A stretch of DNA of 64,000 bases from Hyphomicrobiaceae bacterium (GTDB lineage Bacteria; Pseudomonadota; Alphaproteobacteria; Rhizobiales; Hyphomicrobiaceae), in NCBI GenBank assembly GCA_002919265.1, contig PKEY01000051.1, forward strand, positions 36,947-100,946, written 5' to 3'. The position numbers and the translations under genes were made by a program. Positions 27,140 through 48,286 of the stretch are shown one piece after another. Numbering within the stretch: position 1 is the stretch's first letter; each line of letters begins with the position of its first letter. Below the pieces are notes generated by a model, which made no database searches, was not told the origin of the DNA, and worked only from the letters and a program-made list of their open reading frames with translations.

Positions 27140-28867
27140 TCACGGTATGGCTTCCGGCTGAGTTTCAGCTTGAGCGGCCGGTCTCACCTCTGAAAAGGCC
27201 TCGGAATAGGCATAGGCCCGGATTGGTTGGTCGTGGCCGCGCATCGGTACTTCGCGAAGGACCGAGCCAGGGGGCTTTGTCCCCGCTGCCTGCACGACAG
27301 CTTCGGAGACGAGCATATCCGCGAGCAGTTCTTTCGTGGCCTGCTCAAGCCTGCTCGCAATGCTGATCGTCTCGCCCAGGGCAGTGATGACATAGCCACG
27401 TTCATCGTCACCGACGCGGGCTATGACGGCAGATCCGCAGTGAATGCCAATGCCGACTCGGAATGGTAGCGGCAACGCAGAGCCAAGTTCGTCGTCCAGC
27501 ATTCGGGCGGCGCGAAGAATTGCGTGTCCGGCTGCCAGAGCGTTTCGAGCACCCATGCCGCGCTGCCCGCCAAGGCCAAAGATCGCCATGACGCCGTCGC
27601 TGAGAAACATGCCGATACGGCCACCGTGGGCTTCGACGGCCTGCGCGATTTCGCCCAGAAACCGATTGATAAGGAGCACGGTGTCGTGTGGGAGCTGTTT
27701 TTTGGAAAGCGAGGTGAACGCACGAATGTCGACGAACAATATCGAGACATTCCGATCGACACCCCACTTGTAGGCTTCTTCCTCCCAATCCAGTCCGGCA
27801 TCACGCGCAATGGTAGGAAGGAGAATTTGCACCGCAATGGGTTGTTTCGGACGAATTTGACACGCAAGGCGCACGTTCTTTGGCGCCGAAATTCGGCTCA
27901 ATACCATTCTTTCTGAGTATGTTGGTTCGGGCAGTGTTTCGAGCCCCGAGAGCACGAGGACTCGGCAGGTGGCACAACGGCCGCGGCCACCACATAAGGA
28001 CGGGTGTGGAATGCGGTTTTGGCGGCTTGCATCGAGAAGCGAGGCGCCGGGCCGAAGAGCGGTTTCACCATGCCCGACGTAGCGGACGGGCACTGTCCCT
28101 CTCCAGCTCCGGGCAACTTCCGTTGCAACGAGCGCGCCGACAATGAGGAGACCGCCCGCGATCAGTAGCTGGTACGAGATTTCGACCACCTGTTGAAGTC
28201 CGGTTACCTGCTCAGGTGCGAGCGCGATTTCGGAATGCACAGTCGAGGCTGCCTCGCGGCCTGCGGCGAGAAAGCCGGCAATTGCAAGCAAGGGAATGGA
28301 GAAGGCCAGCGCAAAACCAATTTCGCGCACGCGTTCAAACCACGGTTTATGTCGGACGACATAGTGAATTCCGATGATGCCATGGAACCAGGCAACAAGG
28401 ACGAGGATCGTCTGCCAGGCGATTTGGTTCGGGTAAATGCGGGTCAAGACAGCCGTGTAAGAATCGTCCGTGCTCAATATGGAGCTGCCGTACCTCGTGT
28501 TAAGCGCGTGTTCGAGAACGAGCGCCGGAATTGCGAGACCAAGCACAATTTGCAAGCCTTCTTCAATCGGCATTCGGCAGGGCGTGCGTAGCGCGATCCG
28601 CTTCAAGGTCAATCCGACGTGCAGGGCCGCAGCGCCATAAAGCGCCACCGTTCCTGGCCAGCTGCGCCAGATGAAGACGCGCCAGTGCTGAACGGCTTCC
28701 ATTGTGGGTACGCCCAACACCCCGATGGCGTGGTTCAAGAGGTGCATTGTCACGAAGGCGAAGAGAACGAGACCGGACCACAGGCGAATTTCACGTTCCC
28801 AATGCACATTGCGCAATGCCGCGCGGTATCGGGAGAGGGCTGCCAACATGGAACTAAGCAGGGGCAT
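27140..28867 (-). CDS. Class III nucleotide cyclase-like protein: SDH-like diheme-b-type membrane anchor, 2Fe-2S ferredoxin domain, cyclase domain
   Basis: Hydrophobic N-terminus with TM histidines (MHLLNH, ALHVGL, LEHALN, WFHGIIGIH); CGGRGRCATC...LACQ; SILFVDIRAFTSLS...FLSDGVMAIFG...GIHCGSAVIARVG. Confidence 0.82.
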   Translation of the reverse strand: MPLLSSMLAALSRYRAALRNVHWEREIRLWSGLVLFAFVTMHLLNHAIGVLGVPTMEAVQHWRVFIWRSWPGTVALYGAAALHVGLTLKRIALRTPCRMPIEEGLQIVLGLAIPALVLEHALNTRYGSSILSTDDSYTAVLTRIYPNQIAWQTILVLVAWFHGIIGIHYVVRHKPWFERVREIGFALAFSIPLLAIAGFLAAGREAASTVHSEIALAPEQVTGLQQVVEISYQLLIAGGLLIVGALVATEVARSWRGTVPVRYVGHGETALRPGASLLDASRQNRIPHPSLCGGRGRCATCRVLVLSGLETLPEPTYSERMVLSRISAPKNVRLACQIRPKQPIAVQILLPTIARDAGLDWEEEAYKWGVDRNVSILFVDIRAFTSLSKKQLPHDTVLLINRFLGEIAQAVEAHGGRIGMFLSDGVMAIFGLGGQRGMGARNALAAGHAILRAARMLDDELGSALPLPFRVGIGIHCGSAVIARVGDDERGYVITALGETISIASRLEQATKELLADMLVSEAVVQAAGTKPPGSVLREVPMRGHDQPIRAYAYSEAFSEVRPAAQAETQPEAIP

Positions 28868-28930: not shown

Positions 28931-31606
28931 TTAAGCAACGGCGGCCGCCAGTTCCGGATCCATTTTGAGCCTCGCCCCGTCGAAGTTTAGGGCCATGTCG
29001 AACTCCTCAGCGGCAGCGGGATCGCTGACGGTTGCTATCAAGGTTCGCCCGGTCATCACTTCCCGCATACGCCCTAGAATCGCGCGTTCATCGTCAGATC
29101 CGAAAACGGACAGTGCGTTGTCGAGAACAAGGATATCTGGGCGTTTCACCAGAGAGCGGGCGATGTTGATCGCCACGCGTTGCGGCTCGTATAGAAGACG
29201 CCCGCCGTGTCCAACGTCAGTTTCGAGGCCGATCCGGTAAACGACGCGCTCCAGGTCATAATCAGCTATGACCTGCCGAACGACTTTCCAGACGCGCTTT
29301 TCGGCCCGTGAGCCTACGAACGCCATCCGGCCGAAAAGGATATTATCGCGGATGGGTGCGGCCATCATAAACTTGTCGAGACCGTAAAACTCGATCTTGC
29401 CAGCCAGCTCGCTCGGCATGTGGCGCATGAAACTGCATCGGGCGCGCAAAATTCGATTTTGGAAGGCCTCGTCCAGCAAATTCAAACGGTGGCGAGGTTC
29501 GATATAGCCAAATGCGAGCGCAATGAGCCGTGTCCGCGCGCTAGGAGATAAATGGGCTCGCCCACCAGGCTGTTGCACGACATCCAACAGTCGATGGTAA
29601 TGCTCCATTTCGTCGGCTTGAATGAGCGAATATCGCTCGAACAGCGGATGGCCGGGGGGTAGGCCGGCAAACATTTCGGCTGTTAGCTCGGCAATCCGAA
29701 GGCCTAGCTCGGTCAAAGGTTCCTCGAGACCTTCAGCTTCGAGAATTGAGCGCACATAGGGCTTGGCGGCGAGCTCAGTGCGGGTTGGTCCTTCGCCGAC
29801 GGGTACGCCGAACAGCAAATTCTCGGCTATGGTAGCGTGCAGATTGTAGCGGGCGGGATCGAATGCCTCGACTAGATCGCTTAGATTTTGTTCTCGGAGG
29901 ACCTCCTGCACAGCCCATCGCGCCGCGATGAAGCGATCCAGAAGCTCCGGTTGGGTTCCGGGTTCAAGCTTACCGTTGAGGCCAAACCAATAGATTTCTT
30001 CATCCAGTCCCACAACCGAAAGGGCACGAAGAATCGCGGCGTCCAGTTGCTCAGGAGTTTCGACCCCGGCAGCTTCGTAGTCGAGCCAACTGTCGTCGAG
30101 GCGAATTTCCGTGGTGCCGTTGACAAGCGACTCATCCAATAGCCGGTGAATGGGAAGATTGACGTTTTCCAGATTTGGCAAAGGCGCTCTTCGGCGCAAG
30201 GAATAGGTGACATTATCTCGGATCGATCCGCCAAAAAGGAGCGGATCTGGCCCTGCGTAAGCAATCAAGCGGCCGGCAGTTTCATCGGAAATGTCCCGAA
30301 GTTCACGTTTTCCGAGCCGGACCGATCCCTGGTATTCGGTAATTTGACGGCCGAGAACCTTGACCAACGTCTCGCGACCGCTGCTGCCCGACCCAACCAG
30401 GGCGATGTGTGATGGCCGGTCAATGGTGATCGAAAGCCCGTCGAGCAGCGGCGATCCACGCCGGTCAACCACGCGGAGGCTTTCGATACGAAGAGGCCCC
30501 TCGAGATTTTCCGGCTTTTCTTCCTCGGCCTCTGGCAACAGCTTGTCGACGGTGAATTGCGAGATCACTTGCTGGTATTTCACCGCGACATCGATGCGCT
30601 GCTGGTCCCAGTCGATCAACTCCTTGATGGGCGGCGGCAGATCTCTGTAAGCGGCAATGACCGCGACGAGCTGGCCAAGGTTGAGACTGCCCTTGAGCGC
30701 GAAATAGCCGCCAACAGCGTAGAAGAAGAACGGTGTGATCTGCGCCAGCAAATTGTTTAGGTATTTGACAGCGAATTTCCGCTTGAAAAGCGCAACCCGA
30801 ATATCAAACAGCTGCGCAAGGCGTTTGCTGATTTCGGCCTTATCGAAGGCAGCGGTTCCATGGATGTGGACCGCAGGAGCCACCTGAACGACTTCTCCGA
30901 TGCGGCCAGCAAGGCGGCGAGCTGCAATCTGTCGTTCACGGCCAAGCCGAATTTGCTCCCGCCTGAGCCGAGGAATGACGACAGCTTGGACCATCACGAC
31001 GGCCAGCGCAATGAAGCCAAGCCAGAAGTTTTGCAGCATGATGAAGAAAAGGGCGGTGAGCGCTTGTGTGCCCAGGAAAACGGGCTGCACGAAAGCATCG
31101 CCGACAAAGCCACCGATTGGCTCCACTTCGTCTTTGATCATGCTGGCCGCTTCCGAAGGCTTTACCGACCTGATGTCCTCCGGACGGAAGCGCAATAGCG
31201 TAGCGAACAGCTCGTAGCGCATTCGTCGCAAAATGCGCTCGCCCATAATGCCCTTGCGGATGTTGATGACGTATTTGAAGGCGCCGTTGATCAGGACCAG
31301 TGCAAGGAAGAGAAAGCTCAGGGCCATAAGGTAGGAGAGCCGGTCGAGCTCGATACCTTCGCTCAAGACAACCTTGCTGCCGCCGAGAAATTCCGGCAGC
31401 GTAATAGCCCAAGCAAAAACATTTGCAGTCGTGCGTCCGTCTGGAAAAGCATGCCCCTGAAGTGCATCGCTGACGATGATCCGCGGCACGTCGAGCGAGG
31501 CGAAATAGAATGGCAACGACGCGAGGATCAGCAGTAGTATCCCGATCTGCTCGCGGCGGCTATGGCGCCAGACGAACCTGAATAGGTTTGGGTCCAATGC
31601 GCGCAT
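28931..31606 (-). CDS. ABC exporter-like protein (TM domain plus degenerate, expanded nucleotide-binding domain)
   Basis: 891 aa; N-terminal TM helices; GSGSSGRETLVKVL in the Walker A position; DILVLDNALS in the Walker B position. Confidence 0.75.
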   Translation of the reverse strand: MRALDPNLFRFVWRHSRREQIGILLLILASLPFYFASLDVPRIIVSDALQGHAFPDGRTTANVFAWAITLPEFLGGSKVVLSEGIELDRLSYLMALSFLFLALVLINGAFKYVINIRKGIMGERILRRMRYELFATLLRFRPEDIRSVKPSEAASMIKDEVEPIGGFVGDAFVQPVFLGTQALTALFFIMLQNFWLGFIALAVVMVQAVVIPRLRREQIRLGRERQIAARRLAGRIGEVVQVAPAVHIHGTAAFDKAEISKRLAQLFDIRVALFKRKFAVKYLNNLLAQITPFFFYAVGGYFALKGSLNLGQLVAVIAAYRDLPPPIKELIDWDQQRIDVAVKYQQVISQFTVDKLLPEAEEEKPENLEGPLRIESLRVVDRRGSPLLDGLSITIDRPSHIALVGSGSSGRETLVKVLGRQITEYQGSVRLGKRELRDISDETAGRLIAYAGPDPLLFGGSIRDNVTYSLRRRAPLPNLENVNLPIHRLLDESLVNGTTEIRLDDSWLDYEAAGVETPEQLDAAILRALSVVGLDEEIYWFGLNGKLEPGTQPELLDRFIAARWAVQEVLREQNLSDLVEAFDPARYNLHATIAENLLFGVPVGEGPTRTELAAKPYVRSILEAEGLEEPLTELGLRIAELTAEMFAGLPPGHPLFERYSLIQADEMEHYHRLLDVVQQPGGRAHLSPSARTRLIALAFGYIEPRHRLNLLDEAFQNRILRARCSFMRHMPSELAGKIEFYGLDKFMMAAPIRDNILFGRMAFVGSRAEKRVWKVVRQVIADYDLERVVYRIGLETDVGHGGRLLYEPQRVAINIARSLVKRPDILVLDNALSVFGSDDERAILGRMREVMTGRTLIATVSDPAAAEEFDMALNFDGARLKMDPELAAAVA

Positions 31607-31721
31607 CCTGTGGGTTGGGACTATCGAAGGTAGTAACGCTAAGCGAAGGCAACAAGAAGCGGCGCTTACGCGCGACCGATTGCACGCCCACTACAGGGTG
31701 GATGCGATGGGGGGAGGGAAC

Positions 31722-32840
31722 ATGAGAGTTGCATTTTATGCGCCGTTAACACCCTGCGATCACCCAACGCCATCCGGTGAACGATTGATGGCGCGGCTTT
31801 TGCTGAAAGCGTTGCAATCAGCGGGTTGCGATGTTCGAATTGTGAGCAATTTACGCACCTATTCCCGCGACCCGGATCTAGGCATTTACCAAGATTTGAA
31901 ATCTGCCGCGCTGAGCGAGGCGTCAAAACTGCTTGAAGCTTGGTCCCAAAAGGGGGATTGGCAGCCTGATTGCTGGTTTACCTATCACCCTTACTACAAG
32001 TCCCCCGATTGGATCGGTCCGGAAATCTGTACGAAACTTGGTATTCCGTATGTAACTGCCGAAGCGTCTTATGCTCCCAAACGCGATTTGGATGCCTGGG
32101 CAATCTGGCAGGCCGATGTGGTGTCGGCTCTTCGTGTTTCCTCGGCGAATTTCTGTTTTACCGTCCGCGACAGGCAAGGGCTTGAGCAATTGCGCGACTT
32201 GCCTGGTCGGTTGATTGATTTGCCCCCTTTTGTGGATCCACCGCCCATTCCGCCGAGGCTTGCGCGTTCTTCTCGAGCAGCGCCACGGCTTGCCGTCGCA
32301 GCGATGATGCGGCCAGGCGACAAGCTGACGAGCTACGTGGTTCTCGCTCAAGCCTTGCAAACGCTGCTCGAACTACCTTGGCGATTAGCCGTTATTGGCG
32401 ACGGTGAAGCCCGCGCGGATGTTTTGACGGCGTTTTCGGCTATCCCACCGGATCGTATCGATTGGCTCGGCCAACTGGAGCCCGAGGCTGTCCTCGACGT
32501 GCTGAGCGCGTGTGACATCTATGTGTGGCCGGGAATCGGCGAGGCTTATGGCATGGCTTATCTCGAAGCCCAGGCCATGGGGCTGCCGGTGGTGGCCCAG
32601 GATACGGCCGGCGTATCTGCCGTCGTGCAGTCTGGAGTTACCGGCCGGCTCACGCCGGCAGGCGATCTCGCAGCCTTTGCAGCGGCTGTGAAGCAGCTTC
32701 TTCTCGAACCCGGCATGCGCAATCAAATGGGGCATGCCGCAACACGGTTCGTTCGCGAGCAACGGAACGTGGCTATGGCAGCTGATGTGCTGCGCAATGC
32801 GCTTTTTGCCATCGTGCCCGTCGGGCGGGGTGATGGATGA
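31722..32840 (+). CDS. GT4-type glycosyltransferase
   Basis: MRVAFYAPLTPCDHPTPSGERLMARLLLKAL; CDIYVWPGIGEAYGMAYLEAQAMGLPVVAQDTAGVSAVV; GGAGGG ribosome site before ATG 31722. Confidence 0.88.
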   Translation: MRVAFYAPLTPCDHPTPSGERLMARLLLKALQSAGCDVRIVSNLRTYSRDPDLGIYQDLKSAALSEASKLLEAWSQKGDWQPDCWFTYHPYYKSPDWIGPEICTKLGIPYVTAEASYAPKRDLDAWAIWQADVVSALRVSSANFCFTVRDRQGLEQLRDLPGRLIDLPPFVDPPPIPPRLARSSRAAPRLAVAAMMRPGDKLTSYVVLAQALQTLLELPWRLAVIGDGEARADVLTAFSAIPPDRIDWLGQLEPEAVLDVLSACDIYVWPGIGEAYGMAYLEAQAMGLPVVAQDTAGVSAVVQSGVTGRLTPAGDLAAFAAAVKQLLLEPGMRNQMGHAATRFVREQRNVAMAADVLRNALFAIVPVGRGDG

Positions 32841-33613
32841 CGCGGAGCAGGGGTTACGCGTCGAAGTGGGAACCCCTTCGTCGCGAGCTCGCGGCTTGGG
32901 AGCAAAACCACGTGGCTGCTCGCTTGTGGCTCCGTGATGATGACGCGGTAAGCGTTACTCCGGCACTTGTGCGGTTGACCGAGCGTTGCGCTGAGCACGA
33001 CGTTCCTTACCTCATCGCAGTCATTCCGAGCCAAGCTGATACGGATTTGGCGAACTATCTTTCGCAACAGCCATTGGCCGAAATCGCAGCGCACGGATGG
33101 ACGCATAGAAACCACGGTGGTCTTGGGTGTAAGGCCGAATTTCCAGAGCAGCGGTCCAGGGTGGAAATCGTGCGTGATTTGCGCCGCGCACGAGATCGTA
33201 TGGAGGCTTTGTTCGGAAGCGGGGCCTTGCCGATCTATGTTCCCCCATGGAACCGCATGGCAGCGGAGGTCGCAAACCTGCTTCCCGTTGCCGGGTTCGA
33301 AACGCTGTCCGTTATCGGACGAAATAGAATCGCAGGACTTTACGGCGAACTCGGGCAAATCAACGTCCACCTCGACATTATTGATTGGCGTGGTTCGCGT
33401 GGGGGTCGTGATCACAAGGAGCTCGTCGACGAACTGGCGGCTCACCTAGCATGGGCGCGCGAGAACGATCAGTCACCCATAGGCATTCTCACGCATCATC
33501 TAGTCCACGACGAACGAGCTTGGACATTTCTGCAAGAGCTTTTTGCCGAAACGGCCCATCATCCGGTCGTGCGCTGGAGCCGCGTAACTGATTTACTCGC
33601 GTCGCAAGTTTGA
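32837..33613 (+). CDS. NodB-like polysaccharide deacetylase family protein
   Basis: ARLWLRDDDAVSVTPAL; AAHGWTHRNH; YVPPWNRM; 4-nt overlap with the glycosyltransferase. Confidence 0.72.
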   Translation: MTRSRGYASKWEPLRRELAAWEQNHVAARLWLRDDDAVSVTPALVRLTERCAEHDVPYLIAVIPSQADTDLANYLSQQPLAEIAAHGWTHRNHGGLGCKAEFPEQRSRVEIVRDLRRARDRMEALFGSGALPIYVPPWNRMAAEVANLLPVAGFETLSVIGRNRIAGLYGELGQINVHLDIIDWRGSRGGRDHKELVDELAAHLAWARENDQSPIGILTHHLVHDERAWTFLQELFAETAHHPVVRWSRVTDLLASQV

Positions 33614-43068: not shown

Positions 43069-44670
43069 TTAGGCTGCCGGCCTGCGCAGCAGATAGGCGC
43101 GCATGGGGCCCTTTCCGGTCAGCTGGACGGTGCCGCGAGATTCAAAGACGTACCGGTCGCGGAGCCGCTCGTAAACGGCCTCTGTCACGTTGATTTCGCC
43201 GGGAAGACCGTGGGATTCCATCCGGCTGGCGGTATTCACCGTGTCGCCCCAGACGTCGTAAATGAACCTGTGGGTTCCGATAATACCGGCGATGACGGGG
43301 CCGGTGTGGATGCCGATGCGCAGCTGAAGCGGAAGGCCCAGGAGCTCGCTCGTGTTACTGGAAACTTCCAGCATCTCGAGCGCCATCCGAGCGACATTTC
43401 CTACATGATCCGCCGAGCGGTCGGTCAATCCGCCAGCGACCATGTAGGCATCGCCGATCGTTTTTATTTTCTCCAGACCGAAATTGAGCGAAAGACGGTC
43501 GAAATCAGAAAAAAGCATATTCAGCAGCTTGATGAGCCGCGTCGCCGATAGCTGAGCCGAAAGACCGGTGAAGCCGACGAGATCTGCGAACAGAATGGTG
43601 GCATCCGGAATATGATCGGCAATGATCGTTTCGCCGAGATTGAGCCGTGCCACGATGGGCATCGGCAAGATATTGAGCAGGAGTGCCTCGGACTTTTCCT
43701 TTTCCGCCTGCAATTGCTTGATGAAAATTTGCTCCCGCTCACGCAAACGCTTTTTCTCGATGCTCGCATTGATGCGGGCACGGAGCAGAACCGGGTTGAA
43801 GGGCTTCGGCATATAATCTTCCGCGCCGGCTTCAATGCAGCGCACGACGCTGTCGATCTGATCCAACGCCGAGATCATGATGACGGGAATGTCGCGAAGC
43901 CTTGGATCGCGTTTGAGCCGCCCGAGCACCTCATAGCCGCTGATGCCGGGCATGATCAGATCGAGCAGGATGAGATCGAACGGATGGGTTTCGGCCAACC
44001 GCAACGCTTCAGCGCCATCGGCGGCCACGGTGACGACGTGGCCATCCCGCGTCAGCCGTCGCGAGAGCAAATCGCGGTTCGATTCATGGTCGTCGACGAC
44101 TAGAATTCGGCACGAGCGAGTGGCCTCGCCGGTGTCCTGTTGCGCCGGCTTGGTGATAAGATCGATGGCATTACTTGCGGCCAGAAAATCCGGGCGGAGC
44201 GCTTGCGGTCTATCGCGGGGCTCCACCGCCAGAGCAGCCAAATCGTCAATTCGTCCGAGCAGCCTTTCCGCCTCGTGGAGCAGTTTCTGGAGGTCGCGTG
44301 CAAACGGCTCCGGCAGAGTTTCCTCGAGCAGCATCTCCCCATAGCCTTTGATGGCGTTAAGCGGTGTGCGGAGGTCGTGCCGCAGCCCGCTGCCTGTCGC
44401 TTGGGAATCTTGCGAGGCGCCATCGCCAAGAAAGGTGAGGTTATCGCCCTTGAGAACACGCGCCACCAATTGCTGGAGAGACGAGGCCGCGCGCTGCATC
44501 CGCGCGATATCTGAAACGAATGCGTCGAGGCCGTATTTCGGAGCATCTTCCGCCAGGAGCTCGACGTAGCCGACGATGGCGGCCACTGGCGCCTCGAAGT
44601 CCTGACGGATGTGGGCAAGGAGTATGGCTTCCGATTGACTATCTGGGGACTGGGGATGTGCTGGCGCCAT
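43069..44670 (-). CDS. HisKA-like domain - receiver - class III adenylate cyclase
   Basis: [76 protein letters not shown]; no HATPase motifs. Confidence 0.9.
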   Translation of the reverse strand: MAPAHPQSPDSQSEAILLAHIRQDFEAPVAAIVGYVELLAEDAPKYGLDAFVSDIARMQRAASSLQQLVARVLKGDNLTFLGDGASQDSQATGSGLRHDLRTPLNAIKGYGEMLLEETLPEPFARDLQKLLHEAERLLGRIDDLAALAVEPRDRPQALRPDFLAASNAIDLITKPAQQDTGEATRSCRILVVDDHESNRDLLSRRLTRDGHVVTVAADGAEALRLAETHPFDLILLDLIMPGISGYEVLGRLKRDPRLRDIPVIMISALDQIDSVVRCIEAGAEDYMPKPFNPVLLRARINASIEKKRLREREQIFIKQLQAEKEKSEALLLNILPMPIVARLNLGETIIADHIPDATILFADLVGFTGLSAQLSATRLIKLLNMLFSDFDRLSLNFGLEKIKTIGDAYMVAGGLTDRSADHVGNVARMALEMLEVSSNTSELLGLPLQLRIGIHTGPVIAGIIGTHRFIYDVWGDTVNTASRMESHGLPGEINVTEAVYERLRDRYVFESRGTVQLTGKGPMRAYLLRRPAA

Positions 44671-45088: not shown

Positions 45089-48000
45089 TCAAGGTTCTGC
45101 TGGTTCAGCCGAGCTCGTTTCCCGTTCTACTTTTTTGATGGCATTGCCAAGGCACTTGCGGATGGCAGCAACAAGCTCGTCGTTGGTACCGGAATGCTTT
45201 TTCAGGATTTTCTCTGTTGATCCGGTCAGAGTTTCGATTTCCTCCGGGCTCAACTCCTTCGCCGTGAGCACGACAATTGGAATGTTGCGCAATTCAGCGC
45301 GCTCCTGGACCTCTTTGAGAAACTCGAAACCATCCATTACGGGCATCATGAGATCCAGCAAAATGAGGTCGGGATGCGGATTACTCGCCAACCAGTGGAG
45401 GCCATCAACTCCATGGGCGGCTTCCACAACGTTCAGGCCGAGTTGCTGCAGAACCCGACGTGTTGAATCCCGGCTGGCCGGATCGTCTTCCACCAGCAGA
45501 ACGGTCGACGTCGCACCGGAGGAAACATAGCGCCGCAACAGGGTCTTCAATGCGGCGCGATCGACCGGTTTTGTCATGAAGTCGGAAGCGCCGAGCGAAA
45601 AGGCCATTCCGCGTTCCTTGAGCACGGTCACCATGATGACGGGAATATCCCGCAATTCCGGATCGGCTTTGAGGGCTGAAAGCACAGACCAGCCGTCCAT
45701 ATGCGGCATCAGCACATCGAGTGTGATCGCCGCAGGGCGATGCGCTCGCGCCTCTTCGAGAGCCTCCCTGCCGGTTTGCGCTTTGATGACGTCGTACCCT
45801 TCCGAGGTTAGCGTTTTGCTCAGCAAGCGCAATGCTGCCGGATCGTCGTCGACGACGAGAATTTTGGCAGGGCCGTCCTTATGCTCCTCGCGCACGGACT
45901 GTTCAGTCGCGGCCTCGCTTGCGGTGGTGGCCTGATCCGGCAGCGAGATCGTGAATGTCGAACCTTTTCCGGCTTCGCTCCGGACGGTCACATCGCCACC
46001 CAGCATGAGGCAGAAATGCTTGGTGATGGCGAGTCCAAGGCCGGTGCCACCAAAGCGCTTTGTGGTCGTCGTATCGGCTTGGGTAAACGTCTGGAACAGC
46101 TTCTTCTGCTGTTCCGGAGTCATACCAATTCCTGTATCACGAACCTCGAAAAGCACATTGGAGCCGGATGGCGTTTCCTCCCGCCAGATGGTCAAAGTAA
46201 TTTTCCCGTCGCTCGTAAATTTCGCGCTGTTGCTCAACAGGTTCAGCAGGCTCTGCTTGAGCTTTGTAAGGTCCGTCCGCATGTGGCCGATATTGGGCGG
46301 GCAAACGACCTGCAGCTTGTTGTTGTTCTTGGCCACCAAGGGACGGATGATCGACTGAAGCTCGCAAACGAGAGCCGAGATGTCGATGTCCTCGACATAA
46401 ATGTCCATACGACCCGCCTCGATTTTGGACAGATCGAGGATGTCGTTGATGATGCCAAGCAGATGGCGGCCTGCCGCTTCAATACGTTCAATGTCGGGCA
46501 AGAGATCGTCGAGGCCGTTGTCGGCTGCATCCTCTTTCAGAATTTCGCTATATCCGATGATGGCATTGAGTGGCGTTCTGAGTTCATGGCTCATGTTTGC
46601 GAGGAAGGCACTCTTGGTGCGGCTGGCTTCGTTCGCCTGATCGCGGGCGACCTCCAGCCGCGCCACGAGATCCGCGAGTTCGAGCTCGCGATTTTTCAGG
46701 GTGCTAATATCGGCCCAGGTGGTCACGCGACCGCCTTCCTGCGTCCGGCGCGTGCCGACCCTCAGCCAAGTTCCATCTTCTAGCTGGATCTCCTCATCGC
46801 TTTCGCCGGCCCGGTGCAACGCGATCTGGCGCGCGATCCACGCTTCTGAATCATCGCTCGATTGGTGATCCCGAGCGCGCCGCTGGGCCAAGTCACGGAC
46901 CAGTGCCTCGAAGCCGAGTCCGTGAACAAGCGGCGTTGCGAGCTTCAGAAACTCCTGGCAACGATCATTGAAGGCAATCAGCCGATCTTCCGGATCCCAA
47001 AGTGCGAAACCGTCTGAAATGCTCTGAATGGCGTCGCTCAAACGATTGCGCGCGATGTCGATTTCCTTCTTTGCTTCCACATAGCGCGTGACGTCCGTGT
47101 ACATCGTCACGAAGCCGCCGCCCGGAACCGGGTTTCTTTGGATTTCGAGCACCCGGCCATCCGGCAACGTACGATGTCCCACGAACGGCTGATCCAGGGT
47201 CTTCATGCGATCACGCAGCATTTCGTCCGGATCGCCTGGACCAAGATCGCCCCGTTGGGTGAGGAAGCGAATGAAGCTTTCTGTCGTGGTGTTTTCGTTG
47301 ATGACGTCCTCGGGCAAATCGAGTAGCTCGCGGAATTGCCGGTTCCACGCAAGAAGCCGGCCATTGCCATCGAACATGGAGACGCCCTGCGCCATGTGAT
47401 CGAACGTGATTGTGAGAATGTGGTTTGCCGCGGTGACCTCGTCCCGGGCGATTTCCAGGCGCCTTAAAGCTTGCTCGCGCTCTTCCGAAAGGCGGTTGCG
47501 CTCGATAAGTCCGTCACGGAACATGGCGAGCGTGTGCGCCATCTGGCCGAGCTCATCGTCGCCACCACGCGGAATGTCGATATCTGTCCTGCCGCTCGTC
47601 AGAGCGCGCATCGCCTCGGTGAGCCCTGAAAGCGGGGTGACGATCGAACGAAGAATGAGAAACGTCAGCGCAAGAGCCAGCGCGCCGGCAGCGAGCACAA
47701 TGGTCCACGATACCGCGACGGCTCCTGCCGCGCGGTGTCGCGCTATCTCGCTCGCAGCTGCTGCCTCCTGCCGCAACTTGGCAACGAGCCGCGCCAGGGC
47801 TTCATCGACAGCAGCAATGTGAACGCGGGCTTGTGATGAAAGCATGTTGCCGATGACACGCCGATCATCCGCATAGGCGTTGACGGCGTCGAGCGAGCGG
47901 CTCATGACCAGCTCGATTTCCCGGCGGATCGTACGGACCGCGTCGGGATCGTGAGGCTCGAGGTTGGTCAATTCGGCATCCAGCCGAGCCTTGGCTTCAC

Positions 48001-48286
48001 GTGCGCGCTGTTCTGAGAGGTTGAGCAGGCTAACGGCCGCATCGGTCAGCCAATATTTCAAATCGCCAAAAGCCTTTTCGGCATCGCTGGCGTTGCGCAG
48101 ATCTTCGACGTACTGGGCCTCGGCCACGAGCGCCTCGGCTCCAAGCCGCAGCTGTTGGTTCATATACATGTTTGTGCCGACAAGAGCTGCGATGAGCGCG
48201 GCCGACAGCAGGATGAGGCGATATCTGATCGGAAGGCCGGACAGACCCGGCCAGCCAGAATTTGAAGATCGTTGCCGGGGCGTCAT
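45089..48286 (-). CDS. Hybrid sensor histidine kinase: TM, HAMP, PAS-like domains, HisKA-HATPase, two receivers
   Basis: [53 protein letters not shown]; two REC Asp motifs ([24 protein letters not shown]). Confidence 0.95.

Follow-up and report, generated by a model that had tools for sequence, protein, structure and literature searches.

Pseudo-ABC exporters of Alphaproteobacteria with eroded catalytic motifs, a triplicated Q-loop/helical unit and a linked cyclic-nucleotide-binding protein

Results

The locus and its degenerate exporter gene

The window analysed here is the whole stretch of 64,000 nucleotides of Hyphomicrobiaceae DNA, and the gene under study lies within it on the minus strand, between a nucleotide cyclase gene and a divergent pair of glycan-related genes (Table 1). 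It starts with ATG and encodes a protein of 891 aa without internal stops. The protein matches the Pfam family ABC_membrane (PF00664) with 37.6 bits at a cut-off of 28 and, partially, ABC_tran with 36.7 bits. Read against canonical exporters, such as one from contig C18 of its own genome, this ABC-exporter-like protein has lost Walker A, the Q-loop, the signature, the Walker B glutamate and the H-loop. Re-reading of the sequence bears out the ORF at 28931-31606 and all NBD motif readings of the original prediction, which suggested, as one of two possibilities, an ABC exporter derivative without ATPase function. That proposal also holds as far as a sequence can tell, with all catalytic NBD motifs gone. 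The absence of ATPase activity is inferred, and it is highly probable, in our view, that in this organism the protein does not work as a pump that hydrolyses ATP.

Table 1. Coordinates of the genes, domains and motifs at the locus (residue numbers refer to the 891-aa protein).
Feature	Position	Strand	Remarks
Class III nucleotide cyclase: N-terminal membrane part, 2Fe-2S (Fer2), Guanylate_cyc	27140..28867	-	63 bp downstream of the pseudo-ABC gene
Pseudo-ABC exporter CDS	28931..31606	-	Pfam ABC_membrane and ABC_tran; AF2 pLDDT 89.5; Foldseek type IV exporters
Six-helix type IV transmembrane domain (TMD), residues ~8-350	30557..31585	-	Most conserved part of the protein, entropy 0.91 bits vs 1.9 for NBD
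First half of split NBD, residues 366-480	30167..30511	-	Holds degenerate Walker A and Q-loop
Degenerate Walker A GSGSSGRETL, residues 405-414	30365..30394	-	Lys to Arg, Ser/Thr to Glu; family counts
Repeat unit A, residues ~437-545	29972..30298	-	Q-loop strand, SIRDNVTYS and helices, with internal insertion; hhalign to B and C
Q-loop position AYAGPDPLLF, residues 449-458	30233-30262	-	Gln absent
NBD insertion between Q-loop half and signature half, residues 481-742	29381..30166	-	Mostly helical, predicted with high confidence; ~900 alignment columns vs ~575-residue exporters
Repeat unit B ARYNLHATIAENLLFG, residues ~551-635	29702..29956	-	N596 invariant; hhalign to C
Repeat unit C KFMMAAPIRDNILFG, residues ~712-795	29222..29473	-	N755 and G759 invariant; hhalign
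Second half of split NBD, residues 743-885	28952..29380	-	Degenerate signature, Walker B and H-loop
Signature position GHGGRLLYEPQR, residues 799-810	29177-29212	-	Reads RLLYEPQR, LSGGQ not met
Walker B DILVLDNALS, residues 824-833	29108-29137	-	Catalytic Glu to Asn
H-loop TVSDP, residues 859-863	29018-29032	-	His absent
GT4 glycosyltransferase, divergent, upstream	31680..32840	+	Like neighbour in 60/109 family loci
Polysaccharide deacetylase overlapping GT4 gene	32837..33613	+	Like neighbour in 40/109 family loci

An exporter fold with a large NBD insertion and a triplicated unit

AF2 predicts a confident fold for the window protein (mean pLDDT 89.5, pTM 0.85, from an alignment with 93 relatives). 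Foldseek comparison of this model with the PDB places type IV exporters on top, with E-values from 4e-14 and with TmrAB, MsbA and PCAT1 among the matches, and half-transporter chains reach TM-scores of up to 0.61 on target length. The alignments extend over ~900 columns for targets of 575 residues, indicating an exporter with a large insertion in the NBD. The insertion adds ~290 residues between the Q-loop and signature positions, and the distance from Walker A to the signature is ~394 residues, compared to ~105 in the canonical exporter of the same genome. No hidden intact NBD was found in the insert, which matches only Q-loop/helical units. The LLDEA sequence at residues 710-714 was considered as a hidden Walker B and rejected, as it is not conserved.

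Segments recur in the window protein at residues 460-469, 592-600 and ~752-759. The NBD region contains three N-x-x-(F/Y)-(G/S) segments, and none of 5000 shuffles of this region gave three. Alignment by hhalign of family profiles made from 150 non-redundant relatives relates unit B to unit C with E = 3e-18 over 84 columns, unit A to unit C with E = 1e-7, and unit A to unit B with E = 2e-6. The unit in common consists of a helix, a short strand and a YDPxRYNxxAxxxxNxLFG stretch, followed by helices. Residues R563, N596, R723, N755 and G759 are invariant over 93 diverse members and occupy equivalent places in units B and C, and the order of structural elements in the AF2 model is the same in these two units. 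The profile alignments, the matching invariant columns and the order of elements together identify a genuine triplication of a Q-loop/helical-subdomain unit.

These results agree in most respects with the original prediction. The membrane domain said to be intact is supported by both the Pfam match and the AF2 model, and the structure prediction and exporter overlay proposed as a check return a type IV exporter with a big NBD insertion. The Q-loop-like segment described as present three times proves to be a true triplication by profile E-values and shuffles, and the suggestion of a rearranged, internally repeated NBD is upheld at the level of sequence by the insertion and the family profiles. 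Only the spacing of about 250 residues between the Walker A and signature halves was too small.

Distribution and motif states of the family

Relatives are encoded at at least 573 of the 592 pattern matches listed in genome contigs (best 80 kept). The family occurs in about a third of the sampled alphaproteobacterial genomes: genome searches give a match in 99 of 298 genomes at the level of the order and in 132 of 385 at that of the class, and all but one of the 32 matching genomes in a phylum sample fall inside the Alphaproteobacteria. It is also found in plasmid records from Rhizobium, Sinorhizobium, Azospirillum, Ruegeria, Phaeobacter and others, under the product names 'ABC transporter ATP-binding protein' and 'ABC transporter transmembrane domain-containing protein'. 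No NCBIfam model at cut-off, no PADLOC model and none of the open-licence literature searched describes the family, and these pseudo-ABC exporters are apparently undescribed.

The motif states were counted in 150 non-redundant members (<75% identity) with pattern searches, which are approximate. Walker A GK is present in 45 members and lost in 105, and GK[ST] is present in only 4. Fourteen members have the Q-loop Gln and 6 have Walker B DE; 40 have a His in the H-loop region, or 18 under a stricter pattern, and none has the SGG signature. Of five canonical features, 97 members have none, 44 have one, 7 have two and 2 have three; the full catalytic set is met in 0 of the 150. Several catalytic residues are kept in a few members (L127, L174, L175, L135 and L165), and L174, L127 and L175 retain K, DE and H. 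In a membrane-domain phylogeny built with FastTree, GK changes state at least 19 times, Gln at least 11 times and DE at least 6 times, so that the loss in relatives looks relaxed and piecemeal rather than like a single fixed replacement. The loss of every motif is therefore a property of the window protein and not a fixed trait of the family. Homologs with canonical Walker A or Walker B, which the original prediction named as evidence against itself, do exist, but they are few by the GK[ST] and DE counts, and none has the full set. In those parts of the family that keep the Walker A Lys, with a few DE and a possible His, ATP binding and perhaps even turnover may persist.

Purifying selection with inverted conservation

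The family is under purifying selection. In 70 close pairs within the family, omega has a median of 0.077 in the membrane domain; the first NBD half, the insert and the second NBD half have medians of 0.175, 0.130 and 0.122, respectively. A decaying pseudogene, also raised at the outset as a possible refutation, is rejected by these values of 0.08-0.18 and by ORFs that are intact in at least hundreds of relatives. The NBD of an exporter is usually at least as conserved as its TMD, and a canonical exporter taken from 30 genomes of the order as a control has mean column entropies of 1.12 bits in the TMD and 1.05 bits in the NBD. In samples of 30 from the family, the corresponding values are 0.91-1.01 bits for the TMD and 1.45-1.93 bits for the NBD parts. 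The conservation is inverted compared to that of a working exporter, with a tight membrane domain and a loose NBD, which indicates a shift of constraint away from ATP chemistry and onto the membrane domain. Nineteen residues are invariant over the 93-member alignment, and no catalytic NBD position is among them; the invariant NBD residues are G427 and the five residues of the repeat units named above.

A cyclic-nucleotide-binding partner

The commonest gene directly downstream in family loci encodes a stand-alone cyclic-nucleotide-binding (CNB) protein of ~150 aa (PF00027, E = 5.6e-18), a kind of protein that serves as a sensor of cyclic AMP. Among loci of relatives with room for such a gene, the window not being included, 202 have an adjacent CNB gene in the same orientation, at a median gap of 47 bp, and in 22 the CNB domain forms a C-terminal fusion, which makes 224 of 230 loci. 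The loci without an adjacent or fused CNB are L009, L127, L111, L135, L140 and L204. The window locus itself has no adjacent or fused CNB gene; L009, which encodes a 72% relative of the window protein, likewise has no adjacent CNB gene. A CNB gene of the family type does exist on a different contig of the window genome (C96:8672-9106; 193 bits, against 94 for the second-best match), so that a partner acting in trans is possible. This near-universal partner is the most informative feature of the family and was absent from the first reading of the sequence.

The two proteins also co-occur across genomes. A CNB match of at least 135 bits is present in 56 of 150 genomes of the order, and all 56 encode the pseudo-ABC protein (Fisher P = 8e-36, a value that ignores relatedness between genomes, which are not independent). 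Five of the 61 genomes with a pseudo-ABC protein fall under the CNB bit cut-off, and three of these (G032, G072 and G087) have a lower-scoring CNB at the locus. In 33 CNB members, the phosphate-binding cassette has an invariant G83, with E84 and R93 conserved at 90% or more, and the conserved cassette Arg is lost in the CNB proteins of some Bosea. PDB matches of the CNB proteins include the regulatory domains of PKA/PKG and also CRP. It is very likely that the pseudo-ABC protein is functionally coupled to the CNB protein, and a physical contact between them is inferred. A natural CNB fusion folds confidently by AF2 (pLDDT 90.7, pTM 0.82); the first ~8 residues of the CNB rows in its alignment are misplaced near position 147, and the model is used for fold confidence only. 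All AF2 models are of single chains, and no CNB-NBD interface is claimed.

Neighbouring genes and membrane-domain-only paralogs

Of 157 family loci with room for such a gene, 68 have a relative of the window cyclase downstream. The window cyclase has a Met at the class III substrate-binding Lys position, which leaves its activity uncertain, and Bosea relatives have other residues there. In Rhizobium, Sinorhizobium and Mesorhizobium, the flanks contain at least two glycosyltransferases, together with either a peptide-type ABC importer or a sugar dehydrogenase, methyltransferase and cyclases. The glycosyltransferase and deacetylase neighbours point to an envelope-glycan context of the family loci. 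Near the homolog on pRL11 of R. johnstonii 3841, the tags pRL110043, pRL110044 and pRL110056 appear in papers; they were considered as the homolog itself and are most likely its neighbours. No published phenotype or experiment on the family was found in the open-licence literature searched.

Several genomes carry paralogs of ~345-450 aa that end after the membrane domain. Such paralogs are rare, and the eight examined require at least two changes on the FastTree tree. Four (L222, L325, L326 and L327) lie within copper-resistance clusters. By Pfam, genes for multicopper oxidase and cupredoxin are present at L222, L325 and L326, and at L327 they are recognised by matching gene order; CopB is present at L222 and L326, and PCuAC at L222 and, under the cut-off, at L325. 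In addition, L223 lies near MerR and cation-efflux genes, L328 adjoins glycosyltransferases, and L324 adjoins sugar-kinase and dehydrogenase genes. L328 and L229 may be truncated. The existence of these paralogs shows that the membrane domain of the family is usable without any NBD.

Discussion

On balance, we lean towards an ATP-independent membrane gate or transporter that is controlled by a cyclic nucleotide and works in an envelope-glycan neighbourhood; its mechanism is inferred. The protein retains the type IV membrane domain, and its NBD, no longer an ATPase, would have turned into a mostly helical regulatory platform, enlarged by the triplication of the Q-loop/helical subdomain. A class III cyclase, often co-located, would make the cyclic nucleotide, and this effector would be read by a dedicated CNB protein, encoded next door, as a C-terminal fusion or elsewhere as here. 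The CNB protein would bind the nucleotide while resting on the pseudo-NBD. The Q-loop units of ordinary exporters touch the coupling helices, and the repeated Q-loop-like units would relay the change to the membrane domain, causing it to open, close or redirect. The membrane domain itself would, in the service of envelope glycan synthesis, be a gated, ATP-independent channel or transporter, or else a membrane signalling unit. We consider it fairly probable that a cyclic nucleotide controls the state of the membrane domain, with the identity of the ligand and the gating both inferred. Whether a solute or lipid really passes, as opposed to pure signalling, we judge to be evenly balanced, and the cargo is likewise an inference.

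Chief among the alternatives is a signalling receptor in the membrane, which would sense the envelope or redox state and relay it through the pseudo-NBD and CNB protein to a cyclase or glycosyltransferases, with nothing crossing the membrane. Such a receptor would suit the strong CNB linkage, the frequent linkage to Fer2-bearing class III cyclases, an NBD freed from catalysis and the glycosyltransferase neighbourhood. We nevertheless find it rather unlikely, because the tightest constraint falls on a complete exporter membrane architecture, and the membrane-domain-only paralogs in copper-resistance clusters suggest a transport-type role.

ATP could still bind as a slow regulatory ligand, making the NBD a nucleotide sensor modulated by the CNB protein. 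SUR1/SUR2 and CFTR (ABCC) are the precedent for an exporter fold turned regulator or gated channel, and they still bind ATP at conserved NBD motifs. The Walker A GK of 45/150 members, the possible H-loop His of 18-40/150 depending on strictness, and the K, DE and H kept by L174, L127 and L175 are compatible with such a sensor. However, the window protein has Arg for Lys and Glu for Ser/Thr and lacks the Q, E and H, and the many changes of Walker A GK on the membrane-domain tree are what would be expected of relaxed positions, not of a conserved site, which leaves this explanation improbable. Differing from SUR1/SUR2 and CFTR, with which no subfamily relation is implied, the window protein has lost the motifs, and the sensor linked to the family for its ligand is a CNB domain.

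A third alternative is that the protein is the degenerate half of a heterodimeric ABC exporter, paired in trans with a competent half and driven by ATP. Heterodimers with a degenerate site, such as TmrAB, are well known, and Walker A is kept in both of their NBDs, since both bind ATP. MsRv1273c/72c is another of this type (PMC12038006), and it is found with TmrAB among the fold matches; several complete exporters are also encoded in the window genome. We consider this pairing very unlikely because Walker A itself is lost, with the Lys gone in the window protein and GK in 105/150 members, and no half-transporter is linked: a gene for a competent half is absent from the conserved neighbour clusters examined, and the co-occurring partner is the CNB protein instead. 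The conservation of the NBD is also far too low. A Pycsar-like anti-phage system, in which a cyclase and a CNB-controlled membrane effector would damage the membrane on infection, has a similar logic of cyclase, CNB and membrane protein, with 58 bits for the window cyclase against PADLOC Pycsar cyclase models and matches of the CNB proteins to the CNB part of Pycsar effectors, but it is only a remote possibility, as these matches may reflect nothing more than the folds common to cyclases and to CNB proteins, no PADLOC model is matched by the pseudo-ABC protein, the cyclase is inconstant (68/157), the pseudo-ABC/CNB pair is widespread in the class, and the neighbours are glycan and transport genes.

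Extending the preferred reading of a cyclic-nucleotide-controlled gate to the whole family is more speculative. These proteins may be ABC-derived, ATP-independent gates, widespread in Alphaproteobacteria, in which ligand gating through a CNB subunit on the triplicated Q-loop platform replaces the power stroke and controls envelope glycan export or assembly, and a branch pared down to the membrane domain may have been co-opted for copper handling; we offer this only tentatively. The annotation 'ABC transporter ATP-binding protein' is in use for the family, yet ATP hydrolysis is very probably beyond most members. Control by a cyclic nucleotide, if true, would represent a new way to drive or gate the exporter fold and would give cyclic-nucleotide signalling in bacteria, plant symbionts included, a direct target in the membrane. 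The family also lends itself to asking, as in a natural experiment, which NBD residues remain important after catalysis has been abandoned.

Compared to known systems, the protein is closest to the type IV (ABCB/MsbA-like) exporters MsbA, TmrAB, PCAT1 and P-glycoprotein, with which it shares the six-helix membrane domain and the NBD frame; the family profile matches P-glycoprotein-type chains with E 6e-77. It differs from them in lacking the Walker A Lys/Thr, the Q-loop Gln, LSGGQ, the catalytic Glu and the H-loop His, and the family differs further in the 290-residue insertion, which consists partly of two extra Q-loop/helical units, in the inverted conservation and in the CNB partner. HetC and NHLM/PCAT-type exporters are reportedly associated with a CNB-like domain, which is a lead only; in the window family, by comparison, the CNB domain is either fused at the C-terminus or encoded by a gene of its own downstream, and the degenerate NBD carries an insertion. 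The window cyclase is like the redox-regulated adenylate cyclase CyaC in having a class III domain behind a membrane part (PMC10463352). It differs in its Fer2 domain, ferredoxin being unmentioned for CyaC (PMC10463352), and in its catalytic-site substitutions. MsbA2 of S. meliloti (SMb21191) is an MsbA-like protein encoded in a glycosyltransferase operon on pSymB and is reported to be important in symbiosis (PMC3687685, PMC12239276), and SMb21188 lies at 938 kb on pSymB (PMC3687685). The pSymB homolog of the window protein, which in strain 1021 is matched only with two query pieces, lies at 841.7-844.4 kb, and orthology to MsbA2 is rejected by this map position, ~95 kb from the MsbA2 operon.

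Homologs and variants of the pseudo-ABC family

The pseudo-ABC homolog of Sinorhizobium meliloti 1021 was matched only by two separate pieces of the query, which suggests a frameshift in that record; in strain RCAM1750, the homolog is one gene. Another variant, about 870 aa long, still has a recognisable triplicated pseudo-NBD (nucleotide-binding domain) at profile positions ~365-890, but its membrane domain has diverged strongly.

Locations of relatives and window genes
Feature	Location	Strand
Homolog, S. meliloti 1021	L252:8001-10665 (pSymB 841717-844381)	
~870-aa variant	L168:67-2655; L169:1396-4035; L170; L221; L230	
Membrane-domain-only ABC-exporter relatives, lacking the NBD, inside copper-resistance clusters	L222:4917-6158; L325:6034-7377; L326:5531-6730; L327:5501-6700	
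Membrane cyclase with 2Fe-2S ferredoxin domain	window 27140-28867	-
Second class III cyclase, with HisKA and response-regulator domains	window 43069-44670	-
Hybrid histidine kinase (1065 aa), adjoining second cyclase	window 45089-48286	
Tll0287-like protein, near second cyclase	window 48283-49074	

Gene neighbourhoods and cyclases

On Mesorhizobium sp. WSM1497 pWSM1497, the pair encoding pseudo-ABC and the cyclic-nucleotide-binding protein is surrounded by two cyclase genes, a DUF3095 gene, four glycosyltransferase genes, and genes for a polysaccharide deacetylase and a nucleotide-sugar dehydrogenase. The copper clusters, taken as a group, encode multicopper oxidase, cupredoxin, CopB, PCuAC and a P-type ATPase with a heavy-metal binding domain. 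The ferredoxin domain of the window membrane cyclase is placed between its membrane part and catalytic domain, and Met occupies the position of the usual catalytic Lys, where Bosea relatives carry different substitutions.
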